Origin: Planctomyces sp.
GTDB lineage: Bacteria; Planctomycetota; Planctomycetia; Planctomycetales; Planctomycetaceae
Assembly: GCA_005778115.1 (NCBI GenBank)
Contig: SXKJ01000433.1
Location: 1 to 39,736 of the forward strand
DNA length: 39,736 bases
Direction: 5' to 3'
Of the stretch, positions 361 to 33,842 are shown piece after piece. Each line of letters opens with the position of its first letter. Within the stretch, counting starts at the first letter, position 1. The translations under genes and the position numbers were made by a program. A model generated the notes under the pieces. The model saw nothing but the letters and a program-made list of their open reading frames with translations, made no database searches and was not told the DNA's origin.

Positions 361-425
361 GTAGGTCAGGCTTTTCAGCCTGACCCGAAATATCAAACAG
401 GGTCAGGCTGGAAAGCCTGACCTAC
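361..425. repeat. Twin-hairpin intergenic element (GGTCAGGCT family)
   Basis: Bounded by GTAG and CTAC. The left hairpin is GGTCAGGCT / AGCCTGACC (364-372, 377-385) with loop TTTC. The right hairpin has the same 9-bp stem (401-409, 414-422) with loop GGAA. The loops pair fully if one G-U wobble is allowed. It fills the gap between the vertex protein and the aldolase. A close relative lies at 25490-25563. Confidence 0.85.
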
Positions 426-438
426 AGATGAGGACAAC

Positions 439-1335
439 ATGGCCAATAACTGGAACAGCGGCATTCATGATCGCCGCATCAAAGAAGAAATCTGCGAGAT
501 TGGACGTCGCGTGTACGCGAAAGGCTTCGCGGCGGCGAATGATGGGAACATCTCGGTTCGCGTGGGACCGAACGAAGTGGTCTGCTCGCCGACGATGATC
601 TGCAAAGGGTTCATGAAGCCCGAAGATATCTGTGCGGTCGATCTCGACGGCAAGCAGATCGCGGGGACTCGCAAGCGGACCAGCGAGATCCTGCTGCACC
701 TGGCGATCATGCGTGCTCGACCGGACGTTGTTGCGTGCGTGCATTGTCATCCGCCTCACGCGACGGCGTTCGCGGTGGCTCGCGAGCCGATCCCGCAGTG
801 CATCCTGCCGGAGATCGAAGTCTTCATGGGCGAGGTGCCGATCGCTCCGTATGAAACGCCAGGCGGCCAGGACTTCGCGAACACTGTGTTGCCGTTTCTC
901 AAGCCGGGGACGAACACGATTATCCTCGCCAATCATGGCACGATCAGCTTCGGGCCGACGTTGGAGCAGGCGTATTGGAAGACCGAAATTCTCGACGCCT
1001 ATTGCCGGATTCTGTTGCTGTCGAAACAGCTTGGCGGTGTGACGTACCTCAACGAACAGAAATCGCGCGAGTTGCTCGACCTGAAGAAGAAGCTGGGCTT
1101 CGACGACCCGCGGTTTCATGTCGAGGACTGCGACCTGTGCGGCAACGGCGCGTATCGCGACGGCTACAAAGAAGAGATGCCGCAACCGTGTGCGTTCGAG
1201 CCGGCCCCGACGTATCCCGGTTACTTGCAGAAGCCGACCTACGCGGGAGGCAGTGTCGCAGCAGGAAACTCGCCTGATGTGGAAAGTCTCGTGAAGGCGA
1301 TCACCGAGCAAGTGCTGGCAGCGATGGGTAAGTAG
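439..1335 (+). CDS. Class II aldolase (L-fuculose-1-phosphate aldolase type), microcompartment-targeted
   Basis: A 298-residue protein. Residues 1-215 are a class II aldolase/adducin domain: the GNIS phosphate-binding motif is near residue 37, E83 is the likely catalytic acid/base, and H102, H104 and H166 are the expected zinc ligands (VHCHPPH and ILANHGT). It should cleave a deoxy-sugar 1-phosphate to dihydroxyacetone phosphate and lactaldehyde. The tail exceeds that of a plain FucA (about 215 residues). It has a cysteine pair (C231, C234), a Pro/Ala/Gly-rich linker and a final amphipathic helix, VESLVKAITEQVLAAMGK, typical of encapsulation peptides. A GAGG ribosome site precedes the ATG. 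With the vertex protein upstream, this is probably a core enzyme of a fucose/rhamnose microcompartment. Exact substrate is not provable from sequence. Confidence 0.9.
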   Translation: MANNWNSGIHDRRIKEEICEIGRRVYAKGFAAANDGNISVRVGPNEVVCSPTMICKGFMKPEDICAVDLDGKQIAGTRKRTSEILLHLAIMRARPDVVACVHCHPPHATAFAVAREPIPQCILPEIEVFMGEVPIAPYETPGGQDFANTVLPFLKPGTNTIILANHGTISFGPTLEQAYWKTEILDAYCRILLLSKQLGGVTYLNEQKSRELLDLKKKLGFDDPRFHVEDCDLCGNGAYRDGYKEEMPQPCAFEPAPTYPGYLQKPTYAGGSVAAGNSPDVESLVKAITEQVLAAMGK

Positions 1336-1344
1336 CTGTTCTTT

Positions 1345-1422
1345 GAGCGGAATGGCGCTATCCACCGGTGTCGTGGAGTCGGTTTCCCATGCGAAAAACC
1401 GGCGGCTAGCGCCGTGCCGCTC
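1345..1422. repeat. Twin-hairpin element (GGCGCTA family)
   Basis: The left arm (1345-1369) and right arm (1398-1422) match as inverted repeats at 21 of 25 positions. Two of the four differences are compensated locally: the left arm pairs T1353 with A1364 where the right arm has a C-G pair. It separates the convergent aldolase and DUF1501 genes. Related to 29182-29257. Confidence 0.7.
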
Positions 1423-1430
1423 ACTGTTAC

Positions 1431-2846
1431 TCACGCCAACAGCGGCTTCACGACTTCGCCAAGCACGTCGGTCAGGCGGTAGTAGCGGCCTTGGAATTTG
1501 AAGGTCAGGCGAGTGTGGTCGAGGCCCAGGCAGTGCAGCAGCGTGGCGTGCAGGTCGTGGACGTGAACTGGGTTCTCGGTGATGTTGTAAGAAAAATCGT
1601 CGGTCGCTCCGTGTGAGTAGCCGCCGCGAATGCCGCCTCCGGCCAGCCAGATCGAGAAGCAGCGTGGGTGATGGTCGCGACCGTAGTCCTCGGCGGTCAG
1701 CTTGCCTTGGCAATAGACCGTGCGACCGAACTCGCCGCCCCACACGATCAGCGTGTCTTCGAGCAACCCGCGTTGTTTGAGGTCGAGGATCAGCGCGGCC
1801 GACGGTTGATCGGTGTCGCGAACCTGGCCGCGAATCGCTTTCGGAAGGTTGAGATGCTGATCCCAGCCGCGATGGAAGAGCTGGATGAATCGCACGCCAC
1901 GCTCGGCCAGTCGGCGAGCCAGCAAGCAGTTCGCGGCGAAAGTGCCGGGCTTACGAGCGTCGGGGCCATAGAGGTCGAAGATGTGTTCCGGTTCGCTCGA
2001 CACGTCGGTCAGTTCGGGGACGGAGGTCTGCATCCGATACGCTAACTCATACTGGCTGATGCGCGTCGCGATTTCGGGATCGCGGTACTCGTCGAGCTTT
2101 AAGCGATTCAACTCGGCGAGATCATCAAGCACTCGTCGCCGGGTCGCCGCGTCCTGTCCCGGTGGATTCGAAAGATACAGAACCGGATCGCCGATGCTGC
2201 GGAACTTCACCCCTTGATACTTCGAGGGGAGAAAGCCGCTGCCCCATAGGCGGTCGTACAACGGTTGATCGGCCGGGTTGCCGCTGCCGTTGGAGATCAT
2301 GACGACGAACGCCGGCAAATCGGCGTTCTCGCTGCCAAGTCCATAGGCCAACCAACTGCCGATGCTCGGACGGCCCGCGAGTTGATTGCCCGTTTGAAAG
2401 AACGTGATCGCTGGATCGTGATTGATGGCCTCGGTGTGCATCGACTTGATGAAGCAGAGTTCGTCGGCGACTTTGGCGGTGTGAGGCAGCAACTCGCTGA
2501 TCGTTGCGCCTCCTTTGCCGTGCTTCGCGAATTTGAACATTGACGGAGCGATCGGGAAGCTCGCCTGGCGGCTGGTCATGCCGGTGAGCCGTTGGCCTTT
2601 GCGGATTGAGTCGGGGAGTTCAGTCGCTCGCAGATCGGCGAGGTTTGGTTTTGGATCGAACAGGTCCATTTGCGAAGGAGCGCCGGATTGAAACAGGTAG
2701 ATGATCCGCTTGGCTCGCGGCGAGAAGTGTGTTTGACCGCTCGGCGATTGATCGTCGGCGAGAAGGCTTGTGAGCGCGATCGAGCCGAGTCCGGCGGAGC
2801 AGGATTGCAGCCAGTGACGGCGGGTGAAGTCGGAGAGAGTTGGCAT
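1431..2846 (-). CDS. DUF1501 family exported protein
   Basis: A 471-residue protein of the DUF1501 family, which is greatly expanded in planctomycetes and distantly resembles the sulfatase/alkaline phosphatase fold. The N-terminus ([20 protein letters not shown]) carries a twin-arginine pair and a hydrophobic stretch, so Tat export is likely. Family landmarks include the [17 protein letters not shown] segment near the N-terminus, [10 protein letters not shown], and [10 protein letters not shown] near the C-terminus. The ATG at 2846 has GAGGAA six bases upstream and is preferred over a GTG at 2867. Such proteins usually sit beside a DUF1549/DUF1553 cytochrome protein; none is adjacent here. 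Biochemical function is unknown. Confidence 0.88.
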
Positions 2847-2870
2847 GGGAAGTTCCTCGAAGCCCACAAA

Positions 2871-2979
2871 CCCCGCCGGCCTTGTGCCGGTGGCTCGCGG
2901 GCTTTTGCACTACTTGCTGAATCGACTCGGACGGGCGTAGTGCAAAAGCCCGCGAGCCACTGGGACAAGCCCAGTGGGG
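2871..2979. repeat. Twin-hairpin element with 24-bp inner arms (TTTTGCACTAC family)
   Basis: Perfect 24-bp inverted arms (2890-2913 and 2937-2960) are flanked by two small hairpins. The left hairpin is CCGGC-CTTGT-GCCGG (2876-2890) and the right is ACTGGG-ACAAG-CCCAGT (2959-2975). The loops CTTGT and ACAAG are exact complements while the stems differ. It lies between the response regulator and the DUF1501 gene. Related to 20676-20787. Confidence 0.85.
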
Positions 2980-2992
2980 TGAAAGACTGAAT

Positions 2993-4333
2993 TCACACTT
3001 CGATTCCTAGTTCTTCGATCTTGCGGTAGAGGCTGGAGAGGCCGAGTTTTAATCGTTTGGCGGCTTCGCGTTTGTCGGGCCATTGGCGGAGGACTCGTGA
3101 GATGTGCAGCCGCTCGTAGTGTCGCAGGGCGGTGCGGAGGTCGTCGGTATCCGGCAATGGCTGAGTGATGCCGAGTAATTCCGGCGGCAGGTCGTCTGGG
3201 TGGATATGTTGGCCGTCGCACATCAGCACCGCGCGTTCGATGGCATTGTCGAGTTGTCGAACGTTGCCCTTCCATTGAGCAGACATCAGCACGCGAACCG
3301 TTTCGCTGGTGGCTCCGGCGACGCGTTTATTCATGGCTTTCGAGTGCCGGCCGATGAAGAACTCGACGAGTTCCGGGATGTCTTCGGAGCGATCGCGCAG
3401 TGGCGGGATCGTGAGCTTCACGCCGTCGAGCCGATAGAAGAGGTCGTCTTGAAAACGGCTCTCGGCGACTTCGCGCAAAAGATCGCGTGTGGTCGTCGCG
3501 ATCATCCGTGCAGAGACTCGCACCGGATCGGAACCGCCGAGCGGCAGGATCTCCTGGTATTCGATCGCACGCAGCAGTTTGGCTTGAGTGCTCAGCGGCA
3601 GCTCGCTGATTTCATCGAGCAACACGGTTCCCTCGCCGGCGTGCTGGAAGATGCCGACCTGATCCGCCGACGAACCGAGCTTCGAGCCGAAGAGCTGCGC
3701 CTCCAGCAACTCGACCGGCCGCGTGCTGCAATTGACGGCGAGAAACTTTTCGTGGCTCTTCGGCCCGGCTTTGTGGATCGCGCGAGCGAACAGTTCTTTG
3801 CCGGTACCGGACTCGCCGACGAGCAGCACGTTGGCGTTCGTCTTGGCGACTTTGCGGATCGCGTCCTGCAAATCGGCGAGCGGTTGGCTGGAGCCGACGA
3901 TCTGATCGAAGTCTTCACGCCGCGCGAGTTCGCGGCGCAAGGCTTGGTTCTCAAGATCGAGTGCTCGGAATTGAAACAGGCGCTGCAGCTTGTTGAGCAG
4001 GTCGTCGAAGATGACCGGCTTGACGAGGTAATCGAAGGCTCCGGCTTTGAACGCTTCGACGGCGTTCTCGACCGTTGCATAGGCGGTGATGACCAGCACG
4101 GACGTCCGCGGATTTAGACGGATCAACCGCTTGAGCAAGTCGATGCCGTCACCGTCGGGGAGCATCACGTCGCAGATGGCGACATCGAAGTCGTGGCTCA
4201 TCGCCAGTTGGACGGCGTCGGCGACTTTATCTGCCTGCGAGACGACATAGCCTTCGCTCGCCAGCAGCTCGGCCAGCGAGCGGCGGATGACCTCTTCGTC
4301 TTCGCAGATGAGCACGGAACGATGATGCGGCAC
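2993..4333 (-). CDS. NtrC-family response regulator (REC-AAA+-Fis HTH) without a GAFTGA loop
   Basis: A 446-residue regulator. Residues 5-120 are a receiver domain with acidic residues E11/D12, phospho-acceptor D55, T83 and K105. Residues 143-385 are an AAA+ domain with Walker A GESGTGKE (173-180) and Walker B GTVLLDEI (235-242). Residues 395-446 are a Fis-type helix-turn-helix (REAAKRLKLGLSSLYRKIEE). Oddly, the segment after LFG is SKLGSSADQVGIFQHA (217-232): the sigma54-contacting GAFTGA loop and its flanks are missing or replaced. It therefore may not act as a classical sigma54 activator. The start is a GTG, supported by GAGG about five bases upstream and by the receiver domain beginning there. 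No sensor kinase is adjacent. Confidence 0.9.
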   Translation of the reverse strand: MPHHRSVLICEDEEVIRRSLAELLASEGYVVSQADKVADAVQLAMSHDFDVAICDVMLPDGDGIDLLKRLIRLNPRTSVLVITAYATVENAVEAFKAGAFDYLVKPVIFDDLLNKLQRLFQFRALDLENQALRRELARREDFDQIVGSSQPLADLQDAIRKVAKTNANVLLVGESGTGKELFARAIHKAGPKSHEKFLAVNCSTRPVELLEAQLFGSKLGSSADQVGIFQHAGEGTVLLDEISELPLSTQAKLLRAIEYQEILPLGGSDPVRVSARMIATTTRDLLREVAESRFQDDLFYRLDGVKLTIPPLRDRSEDIPELVEFFIGRHSKAMNKRVAGATSETVRVLMSAQWKGNVRQLDNAIERAVLMCDGQHIHPDDLPPELLGITQPLPDTDDLRTALRHYERLHISRVLRQWPDKREAAKRLKLGLSSLYRKIEELGIEV

Positions 4334-4413
4334 GGGAACCTCGCGGTGACGGATGCGATGACGGTATTCAATCGGGTTCGATCGCGGATGTCATCTCGCA
4401 AAGGCTGATTCCC

Positions 4414-4491
4414 GTGGGGCGGGTCGAGTCATCGAGACCCACCACGAATTGATGCCGAATTGGTGGGTCTCGATGACTCGACCCACCCTAC
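4414..4491. repeat. Twin-hairpin element (GGTGGGTCTCG family)
   Basis: Perfect 24-bp inverted arms at 4421-4444 and 4461-4484. Each arm is itself a hairpin with stem GGGTC/GACCC; the loops are GAGTCATCGA (left) and TCGATGACTC (right), exact complements. It ends CCACCCTAC. It sits between divergent genes. Relatives are at 12707-12784 and, partial, 8-38. Confidence 0.85.
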
Positions 4492-4599
4492 ACTCGAATG
4501 ACGATCGAATTCGCTGAACGCTCGCGAACAGCGGGGAGAGTCGCTATCAAATCGCCCTTCGATTTTCATTCCCGTCTCAGAATTCGCGAAGGATCAACC

Positions 4600-5628
4600 A
4601 TGAGCAACGCTTATCCAAAACTGCACAACGCCATGTGGCCGGGCCTCGTGGGCAAAGGCTCTCCGGGTGCCGAGCCGTTTATCAGCCTCGATCGGATGCT
4701 GGAACTGACGACTCAGGCGAATGTCGGCGGACAGAAATTCGATGGCGTGGATTTGTTTCTGTTCGATCCGCACATCGGCATCGACCTTAAAGACGATGAC
4801 ATCAAGCGGATCGCGGACAAGATCGCGAACCTGGGTTTGGCGGTCGGTTCGGTGGTGGCTCCGGTCTGGCCGGGGACGGTCGGCGACAGCGCGATGGGTG
4901 GGCCGGAACAGCGGGCGAAGTTCGTGCTGGCGGTGAAGAAGGCGTGTCGGATCGCTCGCATCCTGAACGAACATGGCGTGCGGAAGTACGGAGTCATTCG
5001 TGTCGATGCGGCAGACGGGCCGAGCCATTGGCTGGAAGACCCGGTTGGCAACACGAAGAAGATTGCTTCGACATTCCGTGAGGCGGGTGTCGTGGCGGCC
5101 GCGCATGGCGAGCGACTCGCGGCGGAAGGAGAAATCTGCTGGGGCGGAATGCACTCGTGGAAGAACATGGTCGATCTGCTCGAACAGACCGATATGCCGG
5201 GCACCGTCGGGTTCCAAGCGGATCAAGCCCACACGTATTTGTATCTGATGGGCTACAACGCTCCGGAGCACGCGCTGCTCAAAGAGGGTTACACCCAGGC
5301 CGAGTTCGAGGCGGCGTACACGAAGCTGACCGATGCGCTGCGACCGTGGACGATCGACTTCCATGTCGCCCAGAACGACGGCACGGTGCATGGCTCCGGC
5401 TCGCACGACAAGACCGGGCGGCACTGCCGAGCGGATGACCCGAACGGCAAGCTCGATATCACGGCGACCGCCGGCTACTGGCTGAAGGGTGCGAAGGACC
5501 GTGGCATCCGGCATCTCTGCTGGGACGGCTGCATGTTCCCGAATTCGACGCTGGAGAATCCGGCCACCTGGAACACGATTCTCGGCGCGATGATCAAGGT
5601 CCGGGATGCTCACGGTTGGAGCGAATGA
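4600..5628 (+). CDS. Sugar phosphate isomerase/epimerase-like TIM-barrel protein
   Basis: A 342-residue cytoplasmic protein resembling the AP-endonuclease-2 / xylose-isomerase-like TIM-barrel superfamily. Suggestive segments are [82 protein letters not shown] and [11 protein letters not shown], giving several His, Asp and Glu residues that could bind a divalent metal at strand ends. The start is the ATG at 4600, with GAAGGA upstream; the extra 34 codons before it are not supported. No substrate can be assigned. It has no signal peptide and no partner gene. It is not obviously a close paralogue of the other TIM-barrel protein at 20809-21828. Confidence 0.75.
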
Positions 5629-5647
5629 GTTGTCCGAATTTTTCGCC

Positions 5648-5721
5648 CTTCATTTTCCGTCAGCTTGTCTTTGTTGGAATCGGGACGAGGGGCGGCGAAA
5701 AATGAGGGGCGGAAAATGAAG
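5648..5721 (+). repeat. Inverted repeat covering the start codon of the next gene
   Basis: The 12-bp CTTCATTTTCCG (5648-5659) is the exact inverse of CGGAAAATGAAG (5710-5721). The right arm contains the ATG at 5716. A second, imperfect copy of the right-arm motif (GCGAAAAATGAG) lies just before it. In RNA the stem would bury the start codon. It may be another intergenic palindromic element. Confidence 0.6.
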
Positions 5722-6738: not shown

Positions 6739-6797
6739 TGGGCGAGCCGGTCATTCCGATTGTGGCGATTTTAGCGAGATCATCCCTGAAGCGTATT

Positions 6798-6869
6798 GGC
6801 GAGCGGGGCGGCGTCAGCCCCCCGGTGCCGCAGCGAATGCACCGAGGGGCTGACGCCGCTCCGCTCGCC
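6798..6869. repeat. Long palindromic element (GGCGAGCGG family)
   Basis: The 30-base arms (6798-6827 and 6840-6869) match at 28 positions as inverted repeats. Inner loops GGCGTCA and TGACGCC are complementary. Close relatives are at 9345-9420 and 18344-18422, and a lone right arm is at 23825-23846. It lies just ahead of the pil-like operon. Confidence 0.85.
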
Positions 6870-6917
6870 TGATGATTTCGGTCGGCATGTTGCCAAAACG
6901 CGACCTATGTTGAGGGC

Positions 6918-7985: not shown

Positions 7986-8017
7986 CACGAGATTTGAGAT
8001 TTGGAATTTGAGCACTC

Positions 8018-8749: not shown

Positions 8750-9335
8750 AGGACTCTTTGAAACGGGACAACCTGCTGACAATCGTGGGGACCGTCTTGA
8801 CGGTCGGCTTCTTCGTGTTGGTGGTGTACCTGCCGGGCGAACGAGCCTGCCAAGCGGCGCGGAGCGAAATCACCATCGCGAACCGCACGATTGATGCCAC
8901 GCCGACGCTCATCCTGGAAGCCGCACAGCTCGAACAGAAGCGCGGCGAGCGTTGCGAAAGCTCGACCGCTTGCTGGACGACGAGCACGAATTGCATGGCG
9001 TGTTACAGAAGGTCGCCAACCTGGCGCACTCGGCGGGGCTGAAGATGGACCGCATCCAGCCGCAATCGGCGATCAATCGCGAGACGTATCGAGTCGTGCC
9101 GTTTCAGGTGACGATCTCTGGCAACTTCCGCCGCATCGCGCAGTTCCTGCATGGCCTGGAATCGCAACCGACACTGTTCTCGGTCGAGCGGTTCAACGTG
9201 AAGTGTGAATCTGAGCAAGCCAGTGAAGCCTTGAAAGCTGACCTGACCTTCTCGGTCTTCGTAAAGCGGGCAAGCTTTGCTGGTTTTGCCGAAAAGAACG
9301 ACAGCCCGAATCCGGCTAAAGCCGATGAATCCTGA
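8746..9335 (+). CDS. pilO: PilO-like protein, split by an apparent -1 frameshift
   Basis: Translation starts at 8746 in the ATGA overlap with pilN. The first part gives a membrane anchor (LLTIVGTVLTVGFFVLVVYL) and coiled coil. That frame loses its PilO character after about 8945 and stops at 9042. The frame starting near 8943-8952 continues the protein with RKLDRLLDDEHELHGVLQKV, a typical PilO periplasmic core (SGNFRRIAQFLHGLESQP) and an end at 9335. Joined, the product would be about 195 residues, normal for PilO. The shift is equivalent to one missing base around 8941-8954. I see no slippery heptamer there, so a sequencing error or a recent mutation is likelier than programmed frameshifting. 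Confidence 0.78.
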
Positions 9336-9344
9336 TAGCACCCG

Positions 9345-9420
9345 TTGGCGAGCGGGGCGGCGTCAGCCCCCCGGTTCGTTCGCCACATGACCGGCGGGCT
9401 GACGCCGCCCCGCTCGCCAA
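9345..9420. repeat. Long palindromic element (GGCGAGCGG family)
   Basis: The 31-base arms (9345-9375 and 9390-9420) match at 30 positions as inverted repeats. It is nearly identical to 6798-6869 but sits inside the operon, between pilO and the PilP-like gene, so it would be transcribed within the polycistron. Confidence 0.87.
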
Positions 9421-9439
9421 AATCTCTGATGCGAAAATC

Positions 9440-10111: not shown

Positions 10112-10144
10112 ACCAGACTAGGCCCAGTCAGGGACGACGGCGGC

Positions 10145-12706: not shown

Positions 12707-12784
12707 GTAGGATGGGTCGAGTCTTCGAGACCGACCAAGTCGTTGACGGTTCGTGGTGGGTCTCGAAGACTCGAACCACCCTAC
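12707..12784. repeat. Twin-hairpin element (GGTGGGTCTCG family)
   Basis: Starts with GTAG four bases after the secretin stop and ends with CTAC at 12784. The left arm core is GGTCGAGTCTTCGAGACC (12715-12732); the right arm carries its inverse, GGTCTCGAAGACTCGAACC. Relatives are at 4414-4491 and, partial, 8-38. Confidence 0.8.
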
Positions 12785-14509: not shown

Positions 14510-14560
14510 GTAGTTCGGACGCCTACGTCCGAACGGCCCGGACGTAGGCGTCCGGGCTAC
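14510..14560. repeat. Compact twin-hairpin element between convergent genes
   Basis: The clearest example of the architecture. Bounded by GTAG and CTAC. The left hairpin is GTTCGGAC-GCCTAC-GTCCGAAC (14513-14534) and the right is CCCGGAC-GTAGGC-GTCCGGG (14537-14556). The loops GCCTAC and GTAGGC are exact complements. The stems differ by compensated pairs. It lies between the stop codons of htrA and the LarA-like gene and could serve as a bidirectional 3' end structure. Confidence 0.88.
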
Positions 14561-18343: not shown

Positions 18344-18422
18344 GGCGAGCGGCAGGGCGTCAGCCCTCCGAGAAATCCCACCACAGCGACGGACTCGGAG
18401 GGCTAACGCCCTGCCGCTCGCC
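18344..18422. repeat. Long palindromic element (GGCGAGCGG family)
   Basis: The 29-base arms (18344-18372 and 18394-18422) match at 28 positions as inverted repeats. The outer GGCGAGCGG is shared with 6798 and 9345, but the inner part (AGGGCGTCAGCCCT) differs. It lies between the methyltransferase start and the stop of the barrel protein. Confidence 0.85.
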
Positions 18423-20664: not shown

Positions 20665-20675
20665 GAACACTCACC

Positions 20676-20787
20676 ACCCCACCGAGCTTGCCTCGGTGGT
20701 TCCAGGCTTCTGCACTACGCGCCGCAGCGCAATCCGCCGCGAAGTAGTGCAAAAGCTCGCGAGCCACCGGGGCAAGCCCGGTGGGGT
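20676..20787. repeat. Twin-hairpin element (TTTTGCACTAC family), possible terminator
   Basis: The left hairpin is CCACCGAG-CTTGC-CTCGGTGG (20679-20699) and the right is CCACCGGG-GCAAG-CCCGGTGG (20764-20784). The loops are exact complements. One stem pair changes from A-T to G-C with both sides altered. Inner arms TGCACTAC/GTAGTGCA are also inverted. The right hairpin is followed by GGTTTTCATT, so it may terminate the cupredoxin-like transcript. Confidence 0.88.
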
Positions 20788-20808
20788 TTTCATTCAAGGG
20801 ACTCCCAC

Positions 20809-21837: not shown

Positions 21838-21910
21838 CCGTACCGCGACCGTCAGGGAGCGGCCCGGATGAGTGTCCGACTCGGGCCGCTCCCTGACGGT
21901 CGCGGTACGG
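21838..21910. repeat. Palindromic element with perfect 29-bp stem
   Basis: The arms 21838-21866 and 21882-21910 are exact inverse complements (outer end CCGTACCGCGACCGTC). Within each arm CCGC/GCGG can pair locally, with complementary loops. It lies between the TIM-barrel and Trm112-like genes. No sequence relative was seen elsewhere in the window. Confidence 0.9.
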
Positions 21911-22155: not shown

Positions 22156-22160
22156 TCCAC

Positions 22161-22706: not shown

Positions 22707-22707
22707 C

Positions 22708-22771
22708 GTAGCACAGGCGGCTCGCCTGTGAGTTTTCGCACAATGACGAGCAGGCGAGCCGCCTGCTCTAC
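22708..22771. repeat. Twin-hairpin element
   Basis: Bounded by GTAG and CTAC. The left hairpin is CACAGGCG-GCT-CGCCTGTG (22712-22730) and the right is GAGCAGGCG-AGC-CGCCTGCTC (22748-22768). The loops are complementary and the stems differ with pairing kept. It occupies the gap between rfbC and pdxA. Confidence 0.87.
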
Positions 22772-22783
22772 GATTTTCCGAAC

Positions 22784-23809: not shown

Positions 23810-23824
23810 CGCTCACGAATAACC

Positions 23825-23846
23825 CTGACGCCGCCCCGCTCGCCAA
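23825..23846. repeat. Solo right arm of the GGCGAGCGG-family element
   Basis: CTGACGCCGCCCCGCTCGCC plus two A residues, identical to the right end of the element at 9345-9420, but with no matching left arm here. It lies between the convergent pdxA and carboxyltransferase stops. Confidence 0.7.
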
Positions 23847-23856
23847 AGTGTCGCGC

Positions 23857-25479
23857 TTACATCTGCATCATCCCCGTATGGAACTCGCCGCGCGTCGTTC
23901 CTTCCGGGATCAAACTCAGCGCCATCGCCAACCAATCGCGTGTCTCGGCCGGAGCGATGATCGCATCGACCCAGCCGCGAGCTGCGCCGTAGCGGATGTC
24001 GGTTTGATCCGTGTAACGCTGCCGAATCTCGTCTCGCAACCGCTTCTTGTCTTCGTCGGACAACGTCCGTCCTCCGCGTTCGGCGTCCCGCACTCGCAGA
24101 GTCAGCAGCGTGTCAGCGGCTTGGTCAGCTCCCATCACGGCGTACTTAGCGTTCGGCCAGGCGAGGATCAGCCACGGATCGTACGCCTTTCCGCACAGCG
24201 CGTAGTTGCCCGCTCCGAACGAGCCACCGATCACAACGGTTAGCTTCGGGACGACGCTGTTGCTGACGACGTTTACCAGCTTCGCCCCCGAGCGAATGAT
24301 GCCGGATTGCTCGGCCTGCCGGCCGACCATGAAACCTTGCACGTTTTGGAAAAAGACAATCGGCACCTTTGTCTGATTGCACTCCATGACAAACCGCGCG
24401 GCCTTCTCGGCCGAGTCGGCATACAGCACGCCGCCGATCTGCAACTCGCCCGTCGCCGAATGACAACGCTGACATTGATTGGCCACGATCCCGACCGCTC
24501 GACCACCGATCCGAGCAAACGCGGTCACGATCGTGTGTCCGTAGTCCGCGCGGAACTCTTGCAGCGAATCGGCATCGATCACGCATGCGAGCACGTCGTG
24601 AATGTCGAACTCCGTCCGCTCGGTTCCCGGTACGATCGTGTCGAGTTCGGACGGATCTCGCTCAGGCGCCGAAGTCGTGAGACTTCGGTCCGAACTCTCA
24701 CGAGTTCGGCTACTCGCTACTGGTTCATTCGGCAGCAACTCAATCAACGACCTCAACCGTTGCAGACACGCGCGGTCATCCGGTTCGCGGTAATCGACCG
24801 TGCCGCTGATCTCCGCGTGCATCTTCGCTCCGCCGAGTTCTTCGGGATCAACCTTCTGTCCAATCGCCGCTTTGACCAGCGCCGGCCCCGCGAGATAAAG
24901 CTGACTTCCCTCAGTCATCAGCAACGTGTCCGAGAGGACCGGCAGATACGCTCCACCCGCCACGCAGTTCCCCATGACCGCCGAATACTGCGGAATGCCC
25001 ATCGCCGAGATCACCGCGTTGTTCCGAAAGATGCGACCGAAATCATCCTCATCCGGAAAGATCTCGTCTTGCAGCGGCAGAAACACGCCTGACGAATCCA
25101 CGAGATACACCAGCGGCAAACGAATCGTCATCGCGATCCGCTGAGCCCGCAGCAGTTTCTTCACCGACTGCGGAAACATCGCCCCTGCTTTGACCGTCGC
25201 ATCATTCGCGACCACCATCACCGAGCGACCATGCACCTGCCCAATCCCCGCAACAACTCCAGCCGCCGGCACGTCGCCCCATTCGGGATACATCTGCCAC
25301 GCCGCCCACAAGCCAAGTTCTCGAAACGGCGTCCCCGGATCGAAGAGCTCATTGAGTCGTTTGCGAGCCGTCATCCGTCCGAGCCGTCGTTGCCGATCCT
25401 GTCCAGACGCGCCGCCACCCTCGCGCAGAGTCGCCTCTTGCTGCTGAATCTGCTGCGTGAGTTCGGAAAGTGCGGGCAT
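23857..25479 (-). CDS. Acyl-CoA carboxylase carboxyltransferase (beta) subunit, MCC type
   Basis: A 540-residue biotin-dependent carboxyltransferase with two crotonase-like halves. The C-terminal half (FFQNVQGFMVGRQAEQSGII, KLTVVIGGSFGAGNYALCGK, WPNAKYAVMGADQAADTL) resembles the 3-methylcrotonyl-CoA and geranyl-CoA carboxylase branch more than propionyl-CoA carboxylase. N-terminal landmarks are RMTARKRLNELFDPGT and YLVDSSGVFLPLQDEIFPD. Between the halves, residues about 254-273 (SSRTRESSDRSLTTSA) are encoded by an in-frame twin-hairpin element and are probably extra linker. No biotin-carrying alpha subunit is in the window. It follows prpD on the same strand (62-base gap), so a propionate or branched-chain acid role is plausible but unproven. 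Confidence 0.9.
   Translation of the reverse strand: MPALSELTQQIQQQEATLREGGGASGQDRQRRLGRMTARKRLNELFDPGTPFRELGLWAAWQMYPEWGDVPAAGVVAGIGQVHGRSVMVVANDATVKAGAMFPQSVKKLLRAQRIAMTIRLPLVYLVDSSGVFLPLQDEIFPDEDDFGRIFRNNAVISAMGIPQYSAVMGNCVAGGAYLPVLSDTLLMTEGSQLYLAGPALVKAAIGQKVDPEELGGAKMHAEISGTVDYREPDDRACLQRLRSLIELLPNEPVASSRTRESSDRSLTTSAPERDPSELDTIVPGTERTEFDIHDVLACVIDADSLQEFRADYGHTIVTAFARIGGRAVGIVANQCQRCHSATGELQIGGVLYADSAEKAARFVMECNQTKVPIVFFQNVQGFMVGRQAEQSGIIRSGAKLVNVVSNSVVPKLTVVIGGSFGAGNYALCGKAYDPWLILAWPNAKYAVMGADQAADTLLTLRVRDAERGGRTLSDEDKKRLRDEIRQRYTDQTDIRYGAARGWVDAIIAPAETRDWLAMALSLIPEGTTRGEFHTGMMQM
24668..24710. repeat. Twin-hairpin element inside the carboxyltransferase gene
   Basis: The left hairpin is CCGAAGTC-GTGA-GACTTCGG (24669-24688) and the right is CCGAACTC-TCAC-GAGTTCGG (24690-24709). 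The loops GTGA and TCAC are exact complements; the stems differ by one compensated pair (G-C versus C-G). It is in frame and adds about 15-20 residues in the linker between the two catalytic halves. Confidence 0.9.
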
Positions 25480-25489
25480 AGGGCATTCC

Positions 25490-25563
25490 GTAGGCCAGGC
25501 CTTCCAGCCTGACCCTTGCTGGTCTGATTACGAATTCGGGTCAGGCTGGAAAGCCTGACCTAT
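25490..25563. repeat. Twin-hairpin element (GGTCAGGCT family)
   Basis: Begins GTAG. The right hairpin GGTCAGGCT-GGAA-AGCCTGACC (25539-25560) is identical to that at 401-422. The left hairpin (25493-25514) is less perfect, with loop TTCC complementary to GGAA. Its right arm overlaps the 3' end of prpD and supplies that gene's stop codon. Confidence 0.85.
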
Positions 25564-26959: not shown

Positions 26960-26976
26960 TGGTGGTTTCCTAAAAT

Positions 26977-27049
26977 GTGTGATAACGGCTTTCGGCGATC
27001 GGCCAACGGCTTTCAGCCGAATGCCGAGAGCCGATCGCCGTTATCACAC
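26977..27049. repeat. Palindromic element between prpC and prpD
   Basis: Outer arms GTGTGATAACGGC (26977-26989) and GCCGTTATCACAC (27037-27049) are perfect inverses. Inner CGGCGATCGGC / GCCGATCGCCG repeats are also inverted, and CGGCT-TTC-AGCCG forms a small central hairpin. It would lie inside the prp transcript. Confidence 0.8.
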
Positions 27050-28168: not shown

Positions 28169-28190
28169 AAGGTTCATCTCCATTTGGACT

Positions 28191-28288
28191 GCGACGACCA
28201 AAGTCGTCGCTTTTCAAAACGCGATTGGATTTCAAAAGACGTCAGCGGACATCAACGCTGTTTGAAAAGCGGCAGCTTGGGCTGCCGC
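28191..28288. repeat. Twin-hairpin element in the prpB-prpC gap
   Basis: The left hairpin is GCGACGAC-CAAA-GTCGTCGC (28191-28210) and the right is GCGGCAGC-TTGG-GCTGCCGC (28269-28288). Three stem pairs differ between them, each compensated. The loops match at three of four positions. Inner arms GCTTTTCAAA/TTTGAAAAGC (28209-28218, 28261-28270) are perfect. It ends 23 bases before the prpC start codon. Confidence 0.85.
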
Positions 28289-28297
28289 ACTCCAAAG

Positions 28298-29161
28298 TTA
28301 CGGGCCATCCAGCCGCGCCTCGAATGTGTGATAATCGAGCACATCGTACAACTCCGCTCGTGTCTGCAAGGTCGGCAGCAAGTCCTTCTGCGTTCCCTGG
28401 GATCGCAACGTCGCATACGCATTCACAGCCGCGAAGTTCATCGCGCGGAAAGCGGTCAGCGGATACAGCACTAAGCGAATACCAAGGTCACGCAACTCTT
28501 CGACGGTCAGCAACGGGCTCCGACCGAACTCGGTCATGTTGGCTAGCACTGGGACGCTCAGCGCCTGAGCGAATTTTCGAAAGTGAGCCGGCTCGGTGAG
28601 CGCTTCCGCGAAGATCATGTCCGCTCCGGCCTCGACATACCGAGCCGCACGTTCGATCGCCCCATCCAATGCCTCGCCAGCCGCCGCATCCGTGCGAGCC
28701 ATCAGCACGAAGCTGGCTTCCATCCGCGCATCGGCTGCGGCCTTCAGGCGATCGCACATGGCCTCTACCGAGACCAATTGCTTGCCAGGACGATGACCAC
28801 AACGCTTCGCATCGACTTGATCCTCCAGATGAATCGCAGCGACCCCCGCGCGAATCATCTCCTGCACAGTCCGAGCGATCGTCAGCGGGCTGCCCCAACC
28901 GGTATCGCAATCGACGAGCAACGGCAGGTCGGTCGTTCCCGTGATCCGACGTGCCTCTTCGACGACATCGTTGAGCGACGTCATGCCCAGGTCCGGCAAA
29001 CCAAACGCCGCGTTAGAGACGCCGGCTCCCGACAAGTAGATCGCTCGAAACCCGGCCCGCTCCGCCAAGCGAGCGCAATAGGCGTTGATAGTGCCGGCCA
29101 CCTGCAATGGCCGTTCTGCTTCCACCGCTTGCCGAAATCGAAGTCCCGGAGATTCGTGCAT
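28298..29161 (-). CDS. prpB: 2-methylisocitrate lyase
   Basis: A 287-residue enzyme of the isocitrate lyase / PEP mutase superfamily. It cleaves 2-methylisocitrate to pyruvate and succinate, the last step of the methylcitrate cycle. The catalytic loop KRCGH (C121 in DAKRCGHRPGKQLV) is intact. Metal and substrate residues appear in LLVDCDTGWGSP and AIHLEDQ, and YLSGAGVSNAAFGLPDLGM gives the N-terminal signature. It is first in the run prpB-prpC-prpD. AAGG lies about nine bases before the ATG. Confidence 0.94.
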   Translation of the reverse strand: MHESPGLRFRQAVEAERPLQVAGTINAYCARLAERAGFRAIYLSGAGVSNAAFGLPDLGMTSLNDVVEEARRITGTTDLPLLVDCDTGWGSPLTIARTVQEMIRAGVAAIHLEDQVDAKRCGHRPGKQLVSVEAMCDRLKAAADARMEASFVLMARTDAAAGEALDGAIERAARYVEAGADMIFAEALTEPAHFRKFAQALSVPVLANMTEFGRSPLLTVEELRDLGIRLVLYPLTAFRAMNFAAVNAYATLRSQGTQKDLLPTLQTRAELYDVLDYHTFEARLDGP

Positions 29162-29181
29162 CGTCGTTGCCTTGATCCCCT

Positions 29182-29257
29182 GAGCGACAGGGCGCTAGCC
29201 CTCGGTCAACCAGGGCATTGTTAATTCAAAGTACCGGTGGCTAGCGCCATTCCGCTC
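29182..29257. repeat. Twin-hairpin element (GGCGCTA family)
   Basis: The left hairpin is AGGGC-GCTA-GCCCT (29189-29202) and the right is TGGC-TAGC-GCCA (29238-29249). The loops are complementary. One stem pair is G-C on the left and T-A on the right, compensated. Outer arms GAGCG/CGCTC pair. It lies upstream of prpB and is related to 1345-1422. Confidence 0.82.
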
Positions 29258-29308
29258 ACGAAATCGTCCTATGTTCTACCGTCGCGGTAAGAGCGAGTCC
29301 GATTCTAT

Positions 29309-32300
29309 TCAATCCTGCGCGAGGTACGCGAACAGATCGCGAAGCTCCTGCGGCTTGAGCTGCTTGTATTGGTCGTCGGGCATCAGCGAGACCGGCGATT
29401 CGCGCAATTCCTCGATGTCGGCCACGGCGAGCGTGACTCGTTCGTTCTTCGCGTTCGCCAGCGTCAGCCCCGCGTCGCTGCGCTCGACGATCAGCCCGTT
29501 GAGCACCCGGCCATCGCGCATCTGCACGATGTGACTGAGGAACTCTTTGCGAATGACAACGCTGGGATCGATCAAGCTGATCAGCAGATAATCGCGGTCC
29601 TTGCGATTCGCCGTGGTCAGGTTCGGGCCGAGTTTCGTTCCCTCGCCACGAAACTGGTGGCAGGTGGCACACAGCTTTTTGAAGGCCGCTTGGCCAGCGA
29701 CAGTGTTGCCGCCAGCCGCGTGCAAATCGTTGTTGAGCCGCCGCACCTCGGCCAGCTTTTCTTCACGAGTCGCCGCGCCCAGCTTGCCCCAATGCTTCGT
29801 CACCAGTGCGTCGAGATCACGGTCCTCGAACAGAGCAACTCGGCGCACTTGATCGACCGGGATGTTGCTCGCTTTAAGCAATCCCCGATCGACGGATTTC
29901 AGCAACGCCGCCGCCGACGGCTTGCGTCCCAGCAACAGGTCAATCGCACGAGCATTCAGCTTCGCTGAGAACTTCGGAAGCTCGGCCAGGATTCGTGACG
30001 TGACCGACTCGTCCCCAATTCGTGACACGGCGACGAGCGCCACTTCTCGGACAGCTTCCGGCTCGGTGGGGGACAAGGCCAAGAGCAACAATGACTCCGC
30101 CGACTCCGGCTCGACCACGTCGGAGAGCAACGTCAACAACGCCACGCGCCGATTTGTGTCCGCTTGCGAATTCAGACATTCCTTCAACGTGCGGTCGTAG
30201 GCCGGCCGGTGTTTCAGCACGAGAGCAAACGAGAGCAACGTGCTGTCCTCTGGCTTCGCCCGCCAGCGCGACACCACGAACTCTTCCAGATCCACCGACT
30301 TCGTGGCCGGCATTCCGCGCGGAGCGTCACGCCATCCCGCCAGCAGCGGCACCAACAGCCGATCTCGTTCGTCGTCGTTTGGAGCTGCTCGCAGCAGCTG
30401 CAAGCACGAAGCGTGGTCGGCGGCTGTTCCCTCGGCCGTGTAACGCCGCACAAGCCGCGGCAGCAACGTCTCGCGCCCCAGTTTCGACTTCCACAAAGAC
30501 GGACGAACGAAGCGTTTCATCACTTCGTCCCGCCCGCTGACGCTGTGCCGCTCGACCGCCCACCACCAGAGCAGCGGCAGATATGGATCGGCGTTGTCGA
30601 TATCCCGATTGATGTTCGCGTTGATGATCGGCATCGCCTGATTCGCCGGCAGCCGAGCGGCGGTGCAGGCCAGTTGCTGACGAACATGAACCGACGGGTC
30701 GGTCTCGGCGAAGTCGTCCAAGTGATGAGCCATCTCCGTCGAGACCGCCTGCTTCGGATCGCCCAGCAATCGCACCGTCCAAATCCGCACGGCGGCATAT
30801 GGGCTGTCGAGCAACTTGAAAGCCAGCGCCTCGTTGAAGCCGCCACAGACATGGAGCGTCCACAACGCTTCCAGCGCGGCGGTTTCGTCGGTGTTGGTGA
30901 GCGCGGCCTGTTGCAGCTTCTCGACATTAGCACGACGCGCGAGCGAGTGGTCTTTCGCCGGTTGACCACTCGCGCGCGCGTCGTGCTGGGGAGGCGAACG
31001 CCTCGCCAACTCTTGTCGAGCGTGTCGGACATACCACTGACTGCGATGCGAGTGCAGCTTCAGCAACTCGTCGTTCGACAGCTTGGCGAAGTCGATCGGC
31101 GCGGCGGGCTTCGTCCCCTTCGGGGCGATGCGATAGATTCGGCCGTTCGAGCGGTCCCATTCGGCATCGGGATCAGGATGCGCCATTCGCGAGTCGTGCC
31201 AATCGGAAACGTAGATTGCTGAGTCCGGCCCCATCGTCACGTCGGTCGGCGCGAACCAGGTGTCGTTCGCAATCAGCAACTCGCCGCCGTGAGCCGTCTG
31301 AAACGTCGAGCCACGCGGTTCGATGTCGTGCCAATACACACCGTGGCCGAGCAGATCCCCGGCGATGTATTTGCCTCGGAACGATTCCGGGAACGAGTCC
31401 CCTTGATAGACGATGCCGCCGACCGTCACATGTCCGCCTCGAAAGTTCTTGTGAGGCACGTGATCGAAGAAGCCGTAAGCGTGCGGATTATGCAACGCTC
31501 CATGCTTGGCAAACGCCTTCACGAGATACGCACCTTGGACGCCGTGCAGCAGCACATGCCCGCCCCAATTCGTGCTGTAGAGCAGTTGCCCGGAGCGATC
31601 GAAGTCCAGCCCCCACGAGTTGCCCCCCCCTTCACAGAAGAGTTCAAACGCGCGGGTCAGCGGGTGATACCGCCACACCCCTTGTTGAAACTCGATGCCG
31701 CGCACGTTGGCGGTCACGGTGCTCCCCTGGCAGCCGTAGAGCCAACCGTCCGGCCCGAACGTCAGTGAGTTCGCGACGCTGTGAGCGTCCTCCATGCCAA
31801 AGCCGCTGAGCAACACTTCCGGTTCGGCATCCGGCACGTCATCGCGATTCTTGTCCGGATAGAAGAGCAAGTATGGCACGTTGAGCACGAACACGCCGCC
31901 ATGTCCGAACGCGATCCCCGTCGTGAGATTCAAGCCGTCGATGAAATCGCGACCACGATCCATGCGGCCGTCGCCGTCGATGTCTTCGAGGATCGTGATC
32001 CGATCGGCGCCGCGCGGCCCCTTCGGCGGCGGCTCCGGCACTCGGTCGTACTTCGTCCGCGAGAAGCGATCGACCTGCACCCGCTTCAGCCCCGCCGGGT
32101 TCGGGTACTGCAAATACTGAATCACCCACAATCGGCCACGATCATCGAATTCGATCGCCACAGGCTGCCGCACAAGCGGCTCGCTGGCGACAACGCTGAC
32201 CTCGAAGCCGTCCGCCACCTTCATCCGCTTGACGGCCTCATCGGGCGATAATTCTTGCCCGAATGCGGCGGACATTGAGCAGGCGACGATCACACAAACT

Positions 32301-32320
32301 CGAAATGCCGACGGCAGCAT
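29309..32320 (-). CDS. PVC-type secreted dehydrogenase with HEAT-like repeats and cytochrome c domain
   Basis: A 1003-residue protein common in planctomycetes. Signal peptide MLPSAFRVCVIVACSMSAAFG. Residues about 25-430 form a beta-propeller membrane-bound dehydrogenase domain (FEVSVVASEPLVRQPVAIEF, RITILEDIDGDGRMD, SLTFGPDGWLYGCQGST, DVTMGPDSAIYVSDWHDSRM). Residues about 460-850 are helical HEAT-like repeats. The C-terminal cytochrome c domain has C884-ATCH (haem) and ends with LKPQELRDLFAYLAQD. It is thought to oxidise sugars or similar substrates; the substrate is unknown. Residues about 445-464 (HDARASGQPAKDHSLARRA) come from an in-frame palindrome. GGGAGG stands seven bases before the ATG. 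Confidence 0.9.
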   Translation of the reverse strand: MLPSAFRVCVIVACSMSAAFGQELSPDEAVKRMKVADGFEVSVVASEPLVRQPVAIEFDDRGRLWVIQYLQYPNPAGLKRVQVDRFSRTKYDRVPEPPPKGPRGADRITILEDIDGDGRMDRGRDFIDGLNLTTGIAFGHGGVFVLNVPYLLFYPDKNRDDVPDAEPEVLLSGFGMEDAHSVANSLTFGPDGWLYGCQGSTVTANVRGIEFQQGVWRYHPLTRAFELFCEGGGNSWGLDFDRSGQLLYSTNWGGHVLLHGVQGAYLVKAFAKHGALHNPHAYGFFDHVPHKNFRGGHVTVGGIVYQGDSFPESFRGKYIAGDLLGHGVYWHDIEPRGSTFQTAHGGELLIANDTWFAPTDVTMGPDSAIYVSDWHDSRMAHPDPDAEWDRSNGRIYRIAPKGTKPAAPIDFAKLSNDELLKLHSHRSQWYVRHARQELARRSPPQHDARASGQPAKDHSLARRANVEKLQQAALTNTDETAALEALWTLHVCGGFNEALAFKLLDSPYAAVRIWTVRLLGDPKQAVSTEMAHHLDDFAETDPSVHVRQQLACTAARLPANQAMPIINANINRDIDNADPYLPLLWWWAVERHSVSGRDEVMKRFVRPSLWKSKLGRETLLPRLVRRYTAEGTAADHASCLQLLRAAPNDDERDRLLVPLLAGWRDAPRGMPATKSVDLEEFVVSRWRAKPEDSTLLSFALVLKHRPAYDRTLKECLNSQADTNRRVALLTLLSDVVEPESAESLLLLALSPTEPEAVREVALVAVSRIGDESVTSRILAELPKFSAKLNARAIDLLLGRKPSAAALLKSVDRGLLKASNIPVDQVRRVALFEDRDLDALVTKHWGKLGAATREEKLAEVRRLNNDLHAAGGNTVAGQAAFKKLCATCHQFRGEGTKLGPNLTTANRKDRDYLLISLIDPSVVIRKEFLSHIVQMRDGRVLNGLIVERSDAGLTLANAKNERVTLAVADIEELRESPVSLMPDDQYKQLKPQELRDLFAYLAQD
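30929..30987. repeat. Palindromic element inside the dehydrogenase gene
   Basis: The 24-base arms (30929-30952 and 30964-30987) match at 23 positions as inverted repeats (outer end AGCACGACGCGCG). It is in frame and lies at the junction of the beta-propeller and HEAT-like domains. A short extra hairpin with GAGGCG-AAC-GCCTCG follows at about 30991. Confidence 0.85.
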
Positions 32321-32353
32321 CTTGGAACCTCCCAATGGATGGGTGCCAAAAAT

Positions 32354-32463
32354 CTGTCCGGCCGAAAACTGCTGGCTGAGGGCTGATGGCTGTTATCCCA
32401 AACTCAAGTTGAGATAACAGCCATCAGCGTTCAGCTCACAGCCAACGGCCAACGGCCGGACAG
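32354..32463. repeat. Nested palindromic element
   Basis: Outer 11-bp arms CTGTCCGGCCG (32354-32364) and CGGCCGGACAG (32453-32463) enclose inner 16-bp perfect arms (32382-32397 and 32413-32428, GCTGATGGCTGTTATC). It fills the gap between the secreted hypothetical gene and the dehydrogenase. Confidence 0.85.
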
Positions 32464-32480
32464 GTGCAATGAGCAACCGA

Positions 32481-33578
32481 TTACGGCAGCGCGATGGTGT
32501 GGAGATCCTGCGAGCCGCTGGGAGACTGCGTGACGATTACTGCATGCGTGCTGTTTAGCTTGTCGAGTTGCACGACCCCTTTGAGCTCCTCGATCGTCTC
32601 GTAGGTTTGGCCGGCAACGCCGCCACCTTTGACGGGTTCGGTGAGCCCCGGATTCTTGGTAATCCCTTCGGTCGTGATCTTCATCACGCCGCGACGGTTA
32701 TTGGCCATCAGCAGGAATGACTTACCATCTTTCTGATAGACAATCATGTCGAGCGGCTGGTTTTGATTGCCGAGTTCGGCGACGGTCGTACCGCGAGTCT
32801 TCTCGCCGGGCTTCAAGGTATTGACGGGGAACTTCACGAGCGGCGTGCAGGTGAAGCCGGCCAGTAAGCTCGCTTCGCCGTCGATGTTGATCGGCAAGAA
32901 CGTACGGACGACGGCGTAGTCTTCAACTTTGCCGTGAGCGGCGTGATAGATCTCTACGCTGGTGCCGGCGTTGGCGTCCGTGAACGGGAACGGAATCTCG
33001 CGCACGTTGGACGGCGACCCGCCAGCCACACCCGAGACGTAAACTTTCCCTTCGGCATAGGCCAGGTCGGTGATCGACTGGTTGCGCAGGTTCGCCTTAC
33101 CACGCTTCGTTTCGACGTCTTTGTCCTCCGGAGCGTTCGGCAGTTCGATCTTTTGCATCAGCACTTTTTGCAGTCCAACCTGGCTGAGTTTTCCATCGGC
33201 CGCGATCTTCACGAGCGCCGCGCTGCCGGCCTTCGAAACCGACAAGTAGGCACTTCCCGTCAGAGGATTCACGGCAAGATCAACGATCGCGATCTTGTCG
33301 GCGTTCACACCGAGCAGCTCGGCGACCTTCGCGTTCACGCCGGAGACGTTGATCGCAACCTTGCTCGGATCGCCTTTCGTGTCGCCGGTGCCGATGGCGA
33401 AGACGGTCGCCCCCTTGGCATCGCCGACAAACAGAATCCCATCCGGACCAAACGCCAGCGGCCCGGCAGATTTGATGTCCGGGTTGCCTTCCTTCAGACC
33501 CCACTCGGCACCGAACGCGGCGCTCATCGAGACCAACAGGCCAGCGATGACACAGGGCACCAATCGAATCGCTCGCAT
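32481..33578 (-). CDS. Secreted protein of unknown function (beta-propeller-like)
   Basis: A 365-residue protein with signal peptide MRAIRLVPCVIAGLLVSMSA, cut near AFGA|E. The mature part has repeating blade-like segments (LAFGPDGILFVGDAKGATVF, IAIVDLAVNPLTGSAYLSV, SITDLAYAEGKVYVSGVAGG, LDMIVYQKDGKSFLLMANN), suggesting a beta-propeller in the periplasm. I do not recognise a specific family and see no catalytic or metal motif. A strong ribosome site (GGAG, seven bases) precedes the ATG. It lies upstream of the dehydrogenase on the same strand, separated by a palindromic element, so joint expression is possible. Confidence 0.7.
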   Translation of the reverse strand: MRAIRLVPCVIAGLLVSMSAAFGAEWGLKEGNPDIKSAGPLAFGPDGILFVGDAKGATVFAIGTGDTKGDPSKVAINVSGVNAKVAELLGVNADKIAIVDLAVNPLTGSAYLSVSKAGSAALVKIAADGKLSQVGLQKVLMQKIELPNAPEDKDVETKRGKANLRNQSITDLAYAEGKVYVSGVAGGSPSNVREIPFPFTDANAGTSVEIYHAAHGKVEDYAVVRTFLPINIDGEASLLAGFTCTPLVKFPVNTLKPGEKTRGTTVAELGNQNQPLDMIVYQKDGKSFLLMANNRRGVMKITTEGITKNPGLTEPVKGGGVAGQTYETIEELKGVVQLDKLNSTHAVIVTQSPSGSQDLHTIALP

Positions 33579-33715
33579 GATTCACTCCTGCTGTGGATTT
33601 CTCGCTGGGTGCCTGCGGCCACGCGGCCACGCCACCTAGCAACGACGGGCGAGCAGTATGCAATCCGGCTTCGTGAATGGAAACCAACACCAACGAATGG
33701 CGGTCTCAAAACGAA

Positions 33716-33750
33716 AGCACCCCGGTCCCTCCAACTTGGACCGGGGTGCT
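33716..33750 (-). terminator. Rho-independent terminator downstream of nrdJ
   Basis: A perfect 13-bp stem, AGCACCCCGGTCC (33716-33728) with GGACCGGGGTGCT (33738-33750), and a 9-base loop. Read on the minus strand it is followed by TTCGTTTTGA. It lies about 90 bases past the nrdJ stop and is distinct from the twin-hairpin elements. Confidence 0.8.
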
Positions 33751-33799
33751 CGATGCCAGGACGAGCCGCTCCGTCAGCAGCATCCCGTGCGTTTTGTGG

Positions 33800-33842
33800 C
33801 TCACGCGGCTCGCGTGAGTCGCAGGCGGGCCGCCCGCACTAC
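33800..33842. repeat. Twin-hairpin element at the nrdJ stop
   Basis: The left hairpin is CTCACGCG-GCT-CGCGTGAG (33800-33818). The right part, GCGGG-CCG-CCCGC (33825-33837), is followed by the terminal CTAC (33839-33842), whose complement contains the TAG stop of nrdJ. The loops are not clearly complementary in this copy. Confidence 0.65.

Follow-up and report, generated by a model that had tools for sequence, protein, structure and literature searches.

Palindromic REP-like doublets of many families in the gaps of a Planctomyces genome, and their links to Y1 transposase genes

Most of the systems closest to the elements described here pair a REP hairpin with a transposase of the Y1 (HUH) family. 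In the sections of PMC6006769 used here, class 2 RAYTs are characterized by the HUH motif, a Y---N motif and the guide-binding residues W94, Q95, E/D100, H101 and R104, and class 3 TnpA-Y1 proteins by a Y----Q motif and non-GTAG hairpins, with a distribution mainly in Planctomycetes, Acidobacteria and Proteobacteria. TnpA-REP of E. coli is described as binding its REP at the foot and the hairpin, cutting it and rejoining it (in part PMC6006769). In-frame REPs within genes are already known from parts of PMC3733652 and PMC6006769, and the former notes that recB of two Xanthomonas species has different REPs at nearly the same position. Head-to-head GTAG REP dimers, REPtrons, TIRtrons and class 3 TnpA hairpins have all been published, Planctomycetes being named among the carriers (PMC3733652, PMC6006769), contrary to a preliminary description of the DNA analysed here, which knew of no described family with this layout.

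That DNA, which we call the window, is a stretch of 39,736 nucleotides from Planctomyces sp. (assembly GCA_005778115.1, contig SXKJ01000433.1), in whose gaps the preliminary description had named 18 palindromic sites. Our main reading, to which we give a probability of about 90%, is that the elements are REP doublets similar to REPINs or BIMEs–that is, non-autonomous elements moved as single-stranded DNA by Y1 (HUH) transposases that are encoded elsewhere. By folding, all 18 named sites form strong hairpins, as had been described; site 33800 holds no more than a half-palindrome, and a separate hairpin resembling a terminator lies nearby at 33716–33750. Fifteen of the sites are among the 25 longest of the 61 inverted repeats in the window (1345, 20676 and 33800 lie outside those 25). 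Two further elements are intragenic, one in a carboxyltransferase open reading frame (ORF; 24668–24710) and one in a DUF7133 ORF (30929–30987), giving 20 elements that we followed.

Using a single fixed palindrome score throughout, with a cut-off of 14 or more, we found 15 palindromes in the window (0.38 per kb) and 73 in the 241,607 bases of 20 other stretches of the same genome (0.30 per kb). Markov-shuffled sequences had none at any of the four thresholds tried (5 shuffles for the sample, 10 for the window). This count against shuffled sequence bears out the statement of the preliminary description that the density is far above chance; the palindrome counts at score 14 correspond to about one per 2.6–3.3 kb rather than the one per 2 kb that it gave. 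The 88 palindromes of the window and sample have a median arm of 26 bp, a loop of 15.5 and a total length of 67. An inner stem of at least 5 bp lies within the arm in 36 of the 88, compared to 10.2 expected from shuffled arms, so the twin-hairpin shape that had been attributed to most elements is real for a part of them. By reading the sequences, we found that GTAG...CTAC bounds, previously said to occur often, are exact at 4 of the 18 sites (361, 12707, 14510 and 22707) and present at one end only at three (4414, 25490 and 33800). At 2871 and 20675, GTAG is on the inner side.

Most of the elements look like inverted doublets of REP-like units. Family C doublets (GTAGGTCAGGCT-TTYC-AGCCTGACC, an inverted pair) are located at 361–425 and 25490–25562, family B (TGAGCGG..GGCGCTAGCC) at 1343–1424 and 29180–29258, family F (GTAGGGTGGGTCGAGTCATCGAGACCCACC) at 4414–4491 and 12707–12784, family E (CCGTACCGCGACCGTCAGGGAGCGGCC) at 21838–21910, and family N at 2870–2980 (tail to tail, with GTAG inside) and 20675–20789. 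Family A (GGCGAGCGGGGCGGCGTCAGCCCC) is at 6798–6869 and 9345–9420, with a variant doublet at 18344–18422. Family P is a pair of hairpins at 28183–28296, family G (AGCACGACGCGCGAGCGAGTGG) is the doublet inside the DUF7133 ORF, and family D is the doublet inside the carboxyltransferase ORF. The others are a GTAG...CTAC doublet at 14510–14560, a GTAG doublet at 22707–22772 (family J), an element of a different type with short GGCGATCGGC-like units at 26977–27049, a long palindrome of short GCTGATGGCTG-like units at 32356–32463, and the half-palindrome at 33771–33836. By eye, a GTAG foot is present in families C, F, J and D and in the 14510 element, lies inside in family N, and is absent in A, B, E, G and P. 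A GNNA loop, also judged by eye, is common to several of the non-GTAG families.

As in REPINs and BIMEs, these closely spaced inverted units are dispersed in many copies. Families A and B together have 1183 sites in this genome (control 8), family C has 234 (control 0) and family E has 200 (control 0), with nearly equal forward and reverse counts in each case. Family C is present in all 12 genomes of the genus, with 2 to 304 sites; a search of 28 other genomes found it in 1, so that 13 of 40 genomes have it.

Copy numbers in the hundreds bear on whether the hairpins could be intrinsic terminators, or other RNA elements kept for a function in the host. They are long, GC-rich and next to gene ends, as terminators would be, and the hairpin at 33716–33750 does resemble a genuine terminator and is conserved in G002. 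T-tracts beside palindromes are rare yet above background (4 of 176 sides, compared to 0.6%), but the other 172 sides lack five or more Ts in the next 7 bases. In gaps of 40–700 bp, occupancy is alike whether the neighboring genes are co-directional (40 of 86 gaps), convergent (10 of 19) or divergent (9 of 20). We found no Rfam match in the window at the gathering threshold. Because T-tracts are rare and occupancy does not depend on gap orientation, we reject terminators as a general explanation, in agreement with the preliminary description, and we consider it very improbable that a host function of this kind accounts for the elements.

No RAYT gene was found within the window, as the preliminary description had also reported, and the transposase genes lie elsewhere in the genome. 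A search of the whole genome for RAYT-like or other HUH transposases, which that description had suggested, yielded 16 matches to the Y1 family, and there are Y1 matches in 11 of the 12 genomes of the genus, most of the genomes compared being drafts. We examined 83 Y1 loci: the 16 in this genome and 27 plus 40 others that are a subset of the matches in the genus. Palindromes of a single family are located at both ends of the gene in many cases–for example, family C at L012 and L100, family E at L014, family B at L115 of G010, family G at L105, and family N at L127 and L131, where they overlap called ORFs. Family G is also linked to L120. When the 20 window elements were aligned to the flanks, a procedure in which, by definition, one random window in 20 exceeds the 95% level, family F was found at both flanks of L016 and family P at both flanks of L116 and L119, and family A was linked weakly to L011, the weakest link of all. 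One-sided flank hits mean little, because copies are everywhere and random windows scored up to 60.

In this genome or others of its genus, therefore, eight window families, comprising 14 of the 20 elements, are found at the flanks of Y1 genes. The cognates of families C, F and E are in this genome, and those of B, G, N and P were seen in sister species only. For six elements (14510, 22707, 24668, 26977, 32356 and 33771) we found no cognate among the 83 loci. Family E is commonest in the genome where its cognate was seen. Families that are not represented in the window show the same arrangement, with same-family palindromes at both ends of, for example, L097, L104, L108, L110, L118, L122, L128 and L130; the palindromes beside L097, L104, L106, L108 and L110 are GGGGTCGGG or GGGGTCAGG. 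Family B also occurs 22 bp upstream of two 5'-shortened Y1 genes, L013 and L015, which we rejected as its cognates because they lack the N-terminal part and belong to another protein cluster; L115 is the better candidate. The comparison with paired REPs and RAYTs drawn in the preliminary description was thus correct, and Y1 genes flanked by the same families, in the genome and in the genus, make it more than an analogy.

To score the sharing of sequence between the left and right flanks of a gene, we set a cut of 22 from a control of 75 ordinary genes, among which the maximum was 21. Of 56 Y1 loci that are not IS200-like, 53 could be scored and 33 reached the cut. Some loci with palindromes of window families fell below it: L012 (21), L120 (16), and L127 and L131 (13 each). 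Among the 27 IS200-like loci, 13 of the 25 that could be scored also passed, and these passes may reflect insertion-sequence ends.

The proteins encoded beside the palindromes fall into different classes. Against NF047646 (REP-associated tyrosine transposase, cut-off 80), L016 scores 184 bits and L012 scores 80 bits. By eye, both have the HUH motif, W, Q, D/E, H and R at the class 2 spacing that is tied to GTAG binding, and Y---N; on these motifs and the NF047646 scores they are class 2 RAYTs. The Y----Q motif occurs in L103, L105, L115, L120, L125 and L129, which have non-GTAG flanking hairpins and are putative class 3 TnpA-Y1 proteins. Y----Q proteins are the partners of families B and G and of families that the window lacks. 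The family E protein, L014, has YTLDEQ and scores below both NCBIfam cut-offs; the family A protein, L011, is cut by a contig end and has YVIEQ, one residue fewer. On inspection by eye, only some of the families show a 5' foot CnGA.

A scan of named genomes for homologs of L012 returned 80 loci, and we read the flanks of ten. One of these, L152 (90% identical), has family C on both sides. Among seven more distant planctomycete homologs, 57–65% identical, five carry the L012 REP: L153, L155, L156 and L158 are flanked on each side by GTAGGTCAGGCTTTCCAGCCTGAC or a close match to it, and L154 has it upstream, its downstream flank being cut by a contig end. The other two have a GTAC-footed variant (L159) and another hairpin (L157). 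At 37–38% identity, L204 and L231 are flanked by different hairpins built on the same plan. A REP sequence can therefore remain associated with its transposase even when the proteins have diverged widely. There are 304 family C sites in G004, in which we found no L012 homolog at E = 1e-25, and 185 in G030, in which we found no close one; the sites in G004 fit loss of the transposase, and also fit other explanations.

These pairings bear on whether the elements, which the preliminary description had called a family, are a single mobile family whose members have diverged beyond recognition. The shared architecture and the recurrent GNNA loop would suit a single family. However, the linked families pair with Y1 genes of different protein clusters, although those of B and G are in the same cluster, and the sequence of family C is conserved between planctomycete genera. 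Clustering of the 88 palindromes by shared 9-mers gave 12 clusters of at least two and 19 singletons; the largest cluster, with 28 palindromes, lumps families A, B and others. Because of this clustering and the different Y1 protein clusters we reject a single mobile family, which is extremely improbable, in favor of many families with one architecture.

The doublet in the carboxyltransferase gene (23857–25479, reverse strand) lies in frame between the two halves of the protein, in the interdomain linker, and the linker is encoded by four different palindromes in this genome (G000), G004, G010 and G002. It is short in G005 and G009, and a further insert fills it in G011 and G007. By eye, the linker palindromes of G010 and G002 resemble those beside the Y1 genes L103 and L125. 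The four-way exchange among siblings is the striking part of this case.

Similar turnover is seen in the gaps. In 110 orthologous comparisons, between 60 gaps of this genome and three siblings with about 86–87% identical DNA, the two genomes had palindromes of different families in 35, of the same family in 19, and none in 18; the palindrome was only in this genome in 13 and only in the sibling in 25 (two with a decayed copy here). These counts define the same family by a similarity of at least 0.40, so that some different pairs are just under the limit (A and B at 9345 score 0.34), and a few of the palindromes counted are weak. Families A and B are swapped between this genome and G010 at 1343 and 9345. 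There are three families in six genomes at 22707, four palindromes in four genomes at 25490, and three families in four genomes at 28183, where a fourth is nested in G004 (at 28191); another nested element is in G010 at 6798. At 20675, by eye, G004, G002 and G007 have the same family and G010 has another; at 14510, G010 and G002 have the same doublet and G004 another palindrome; at 33771, G002 has a family C unit. Siblings have related sequence at the same site at 26977, and G010 and G002 have similar palindromes at 32356. In the literature consulted here, we found no description of such exchange between orthologous planctomycete gaps. Neither an empty site nor an insertion target could be read cleanly in the genomes compared.

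Gaps seldom hold two palindromes. Only 3 of the 139 gaps of at least 40 bp contain two or more, compared to 12.7–14.4 expected, and 0 of 5000 simulations were as low; our simple ORF caller shortens some genes, which affects gap lengths. A bias in this direction is also seen in G010, G002 and G004 and in a pooled set (P from <0.0005 to 0.05 by set and threshold), and the results from G010, G002 and G004 are not independent repeats because their blocks are partly orthologous to those of this genome. Such numbers could mean that, on top of the REP mechanism, each gap requires, or can bear, just one long hairpin and that an arriving element displaces the one already there by inserting into its loop, after which the outer arms are lost, so that the shape persists and the sequence is exchanged. 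The frequency of different families at orthologous gaps and the two nested elements are what this would produce, and so are the 12 gaps in which elements of different families occupy corresponding positions (summed offset 161, null mean 804, 0 of 20,000 simulations). However, we do not rely on the position test, which is inflated because the ORF caller starts genes late and part of each gap is coding. Co-occupancy by different families, with shared copies excluded, does not clearly exceed what independence predicts (odds ratio 2.3, P = 0.077, from comparisons that are not independent), and we do not claim targeted re-use of sites. Moreover, one test on the pooled set reached only P = 0.05, and the same pattern would arise if small gaps were saturated and paired palindromes were deleted. 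Replacement of this kind is possible but on balance unlikely. A broader version is somewhat more doubtful: that a dozen transposase-driven REPIN lineages compete for fixed sites, with one hairpin per tolerant gap, the protein linker included, and with each new element inserting into the resident's loop and taking its place.

Under our main reading, of REP doublets moved by Y1 transposases, two inverted REP units would be copied or moved as single-stranded DNA by the Y1 enzymes. By analogy with E. coli TnpA-REP, each transposase may bind its own REP on the lagging strand, at the foot and the hairpin, and then cut and rejoin it. Several REP/transposase pairs would coexist, with class 2 RAYTs serving the GTAG families C and F, and some of the non-GTAG families served by class 3-like proteins with the Y----Q motif. 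Insertions would fill tolerant gaps, mostly once, and turnover would leave sister species with different families at a given position.

The genus thus offers many REP/transposase pairs in one environmental group with near relatives available for comparison, and several of the pairs are class 3-like, a type described as rare and untested in the literature drawn on here. Direct tests become possible of specificity, of how families compete, of one-per-gap exclusion and of orphan REPs. Hairpin-dense gaps in planctomycetes should not be annotated as terminators or regulatory RNAs.

Compared with described systems, families C and F, which are linked to class 2 RAYTs, are like the GTAG REPs and REPINs of REPtrons; the 14510 element and families J and D are like them by layout only. 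The likeness consists of the inverted doublets, the 234 sites of family C, a RAYT gene flanked by its own family and in-frame intragenic copies. In PMC3733652, as far as the sections used here go, clusters of GTAG repeats are frequent and REPs lie mainly between unidirectional or convergent ORFs, whereas here the gaps mostly hold single doublets and divergent gaps are not avoided. The class 3 TnpA-Y1 hairpins of PMC6006769 share with our elements the Y----Q motif, non-GTAG flanking hairpins and, for family B, the many copies. They differ in that the elements here are near-perfect palindromic doublets and several class 3-like families occur in one genus, and the foot CnGA given in the same part of that paper fits, by eye, only some of our families. 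The GGGGTCGGG and GGGGTCAGG palindromes beside L097, L104, L106, L108 and L110 resemble the GGGGWSAS repeats of TIRtrons and their TIRYTs (part of PMC3733652); such families are present in the genus and in the sampled genome but absent among the elements of the window. Rickettsia palindromic elements (RPE), as cited in part of PMC3733652, are likewise palindromes in frame in protein genes, whereas the copies here lie mostly between genes (87 of 104, using a rough ORF caller) and many of the families have linked Y1 genes. The elements are therefore of a known kind, richly represented and with a layout already published; less ordinary are the rarity of gaps holding two doublets, the difference in family at orthologous gaps and the four-way exchange of the protein linker.

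Family C of the inverted REP doublets forms large populations, with 304 sites in the sibling genome G004 and 185 in genome G030. By searching at a threshold of E 1e-25 we found no RAYT gene similar to L012, the class 2 RAYT that family C doublets flank in the window's own genome, in either G004 or G030, and the family C copies there are possibly orphan REPs.

Two Y1 (HUH) transposase genes, L013 and L015, are alike and 5'-shortened, and a doublet of family B lies upstream of each gene at a distance of 22 bp. The Y1 protein of locus L103, in sibling genome G007, has a C-terminus of repeated TRSVSEGE, which by eye appears to be a translation of that locus's own flanking palindrome. For IS200-like genes (for example, loci L001, L004, L005, L006, L007 and L008), a flank-sharing comparison revealed long repeats common to both flanks in 13 of the 25 that could be scored.

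The interdomain linker of the carboxyltransferase is encoded by a REP doublet (24655-24716), and comparison across siblings showed that in three of them the same linker is encoded by other palindromes, three in all. G007 lacks the family E doublet matching window position 21838 and has CCGTACCG there instead (L061, about 9335-9342), perhaps a scar left by the doublet's deletion.

A separate, terminator-like hairpin, AGCACCCCGGTCC (33716-33750), is retained at the same position in sibling G002. Palindromes at 32356-32463 and 26977-27049, which are built from short GCTGATGGCTG- or GGCGATCGGC-like units and have related sequences at the same sites in siblings, differ from the REP doublets.
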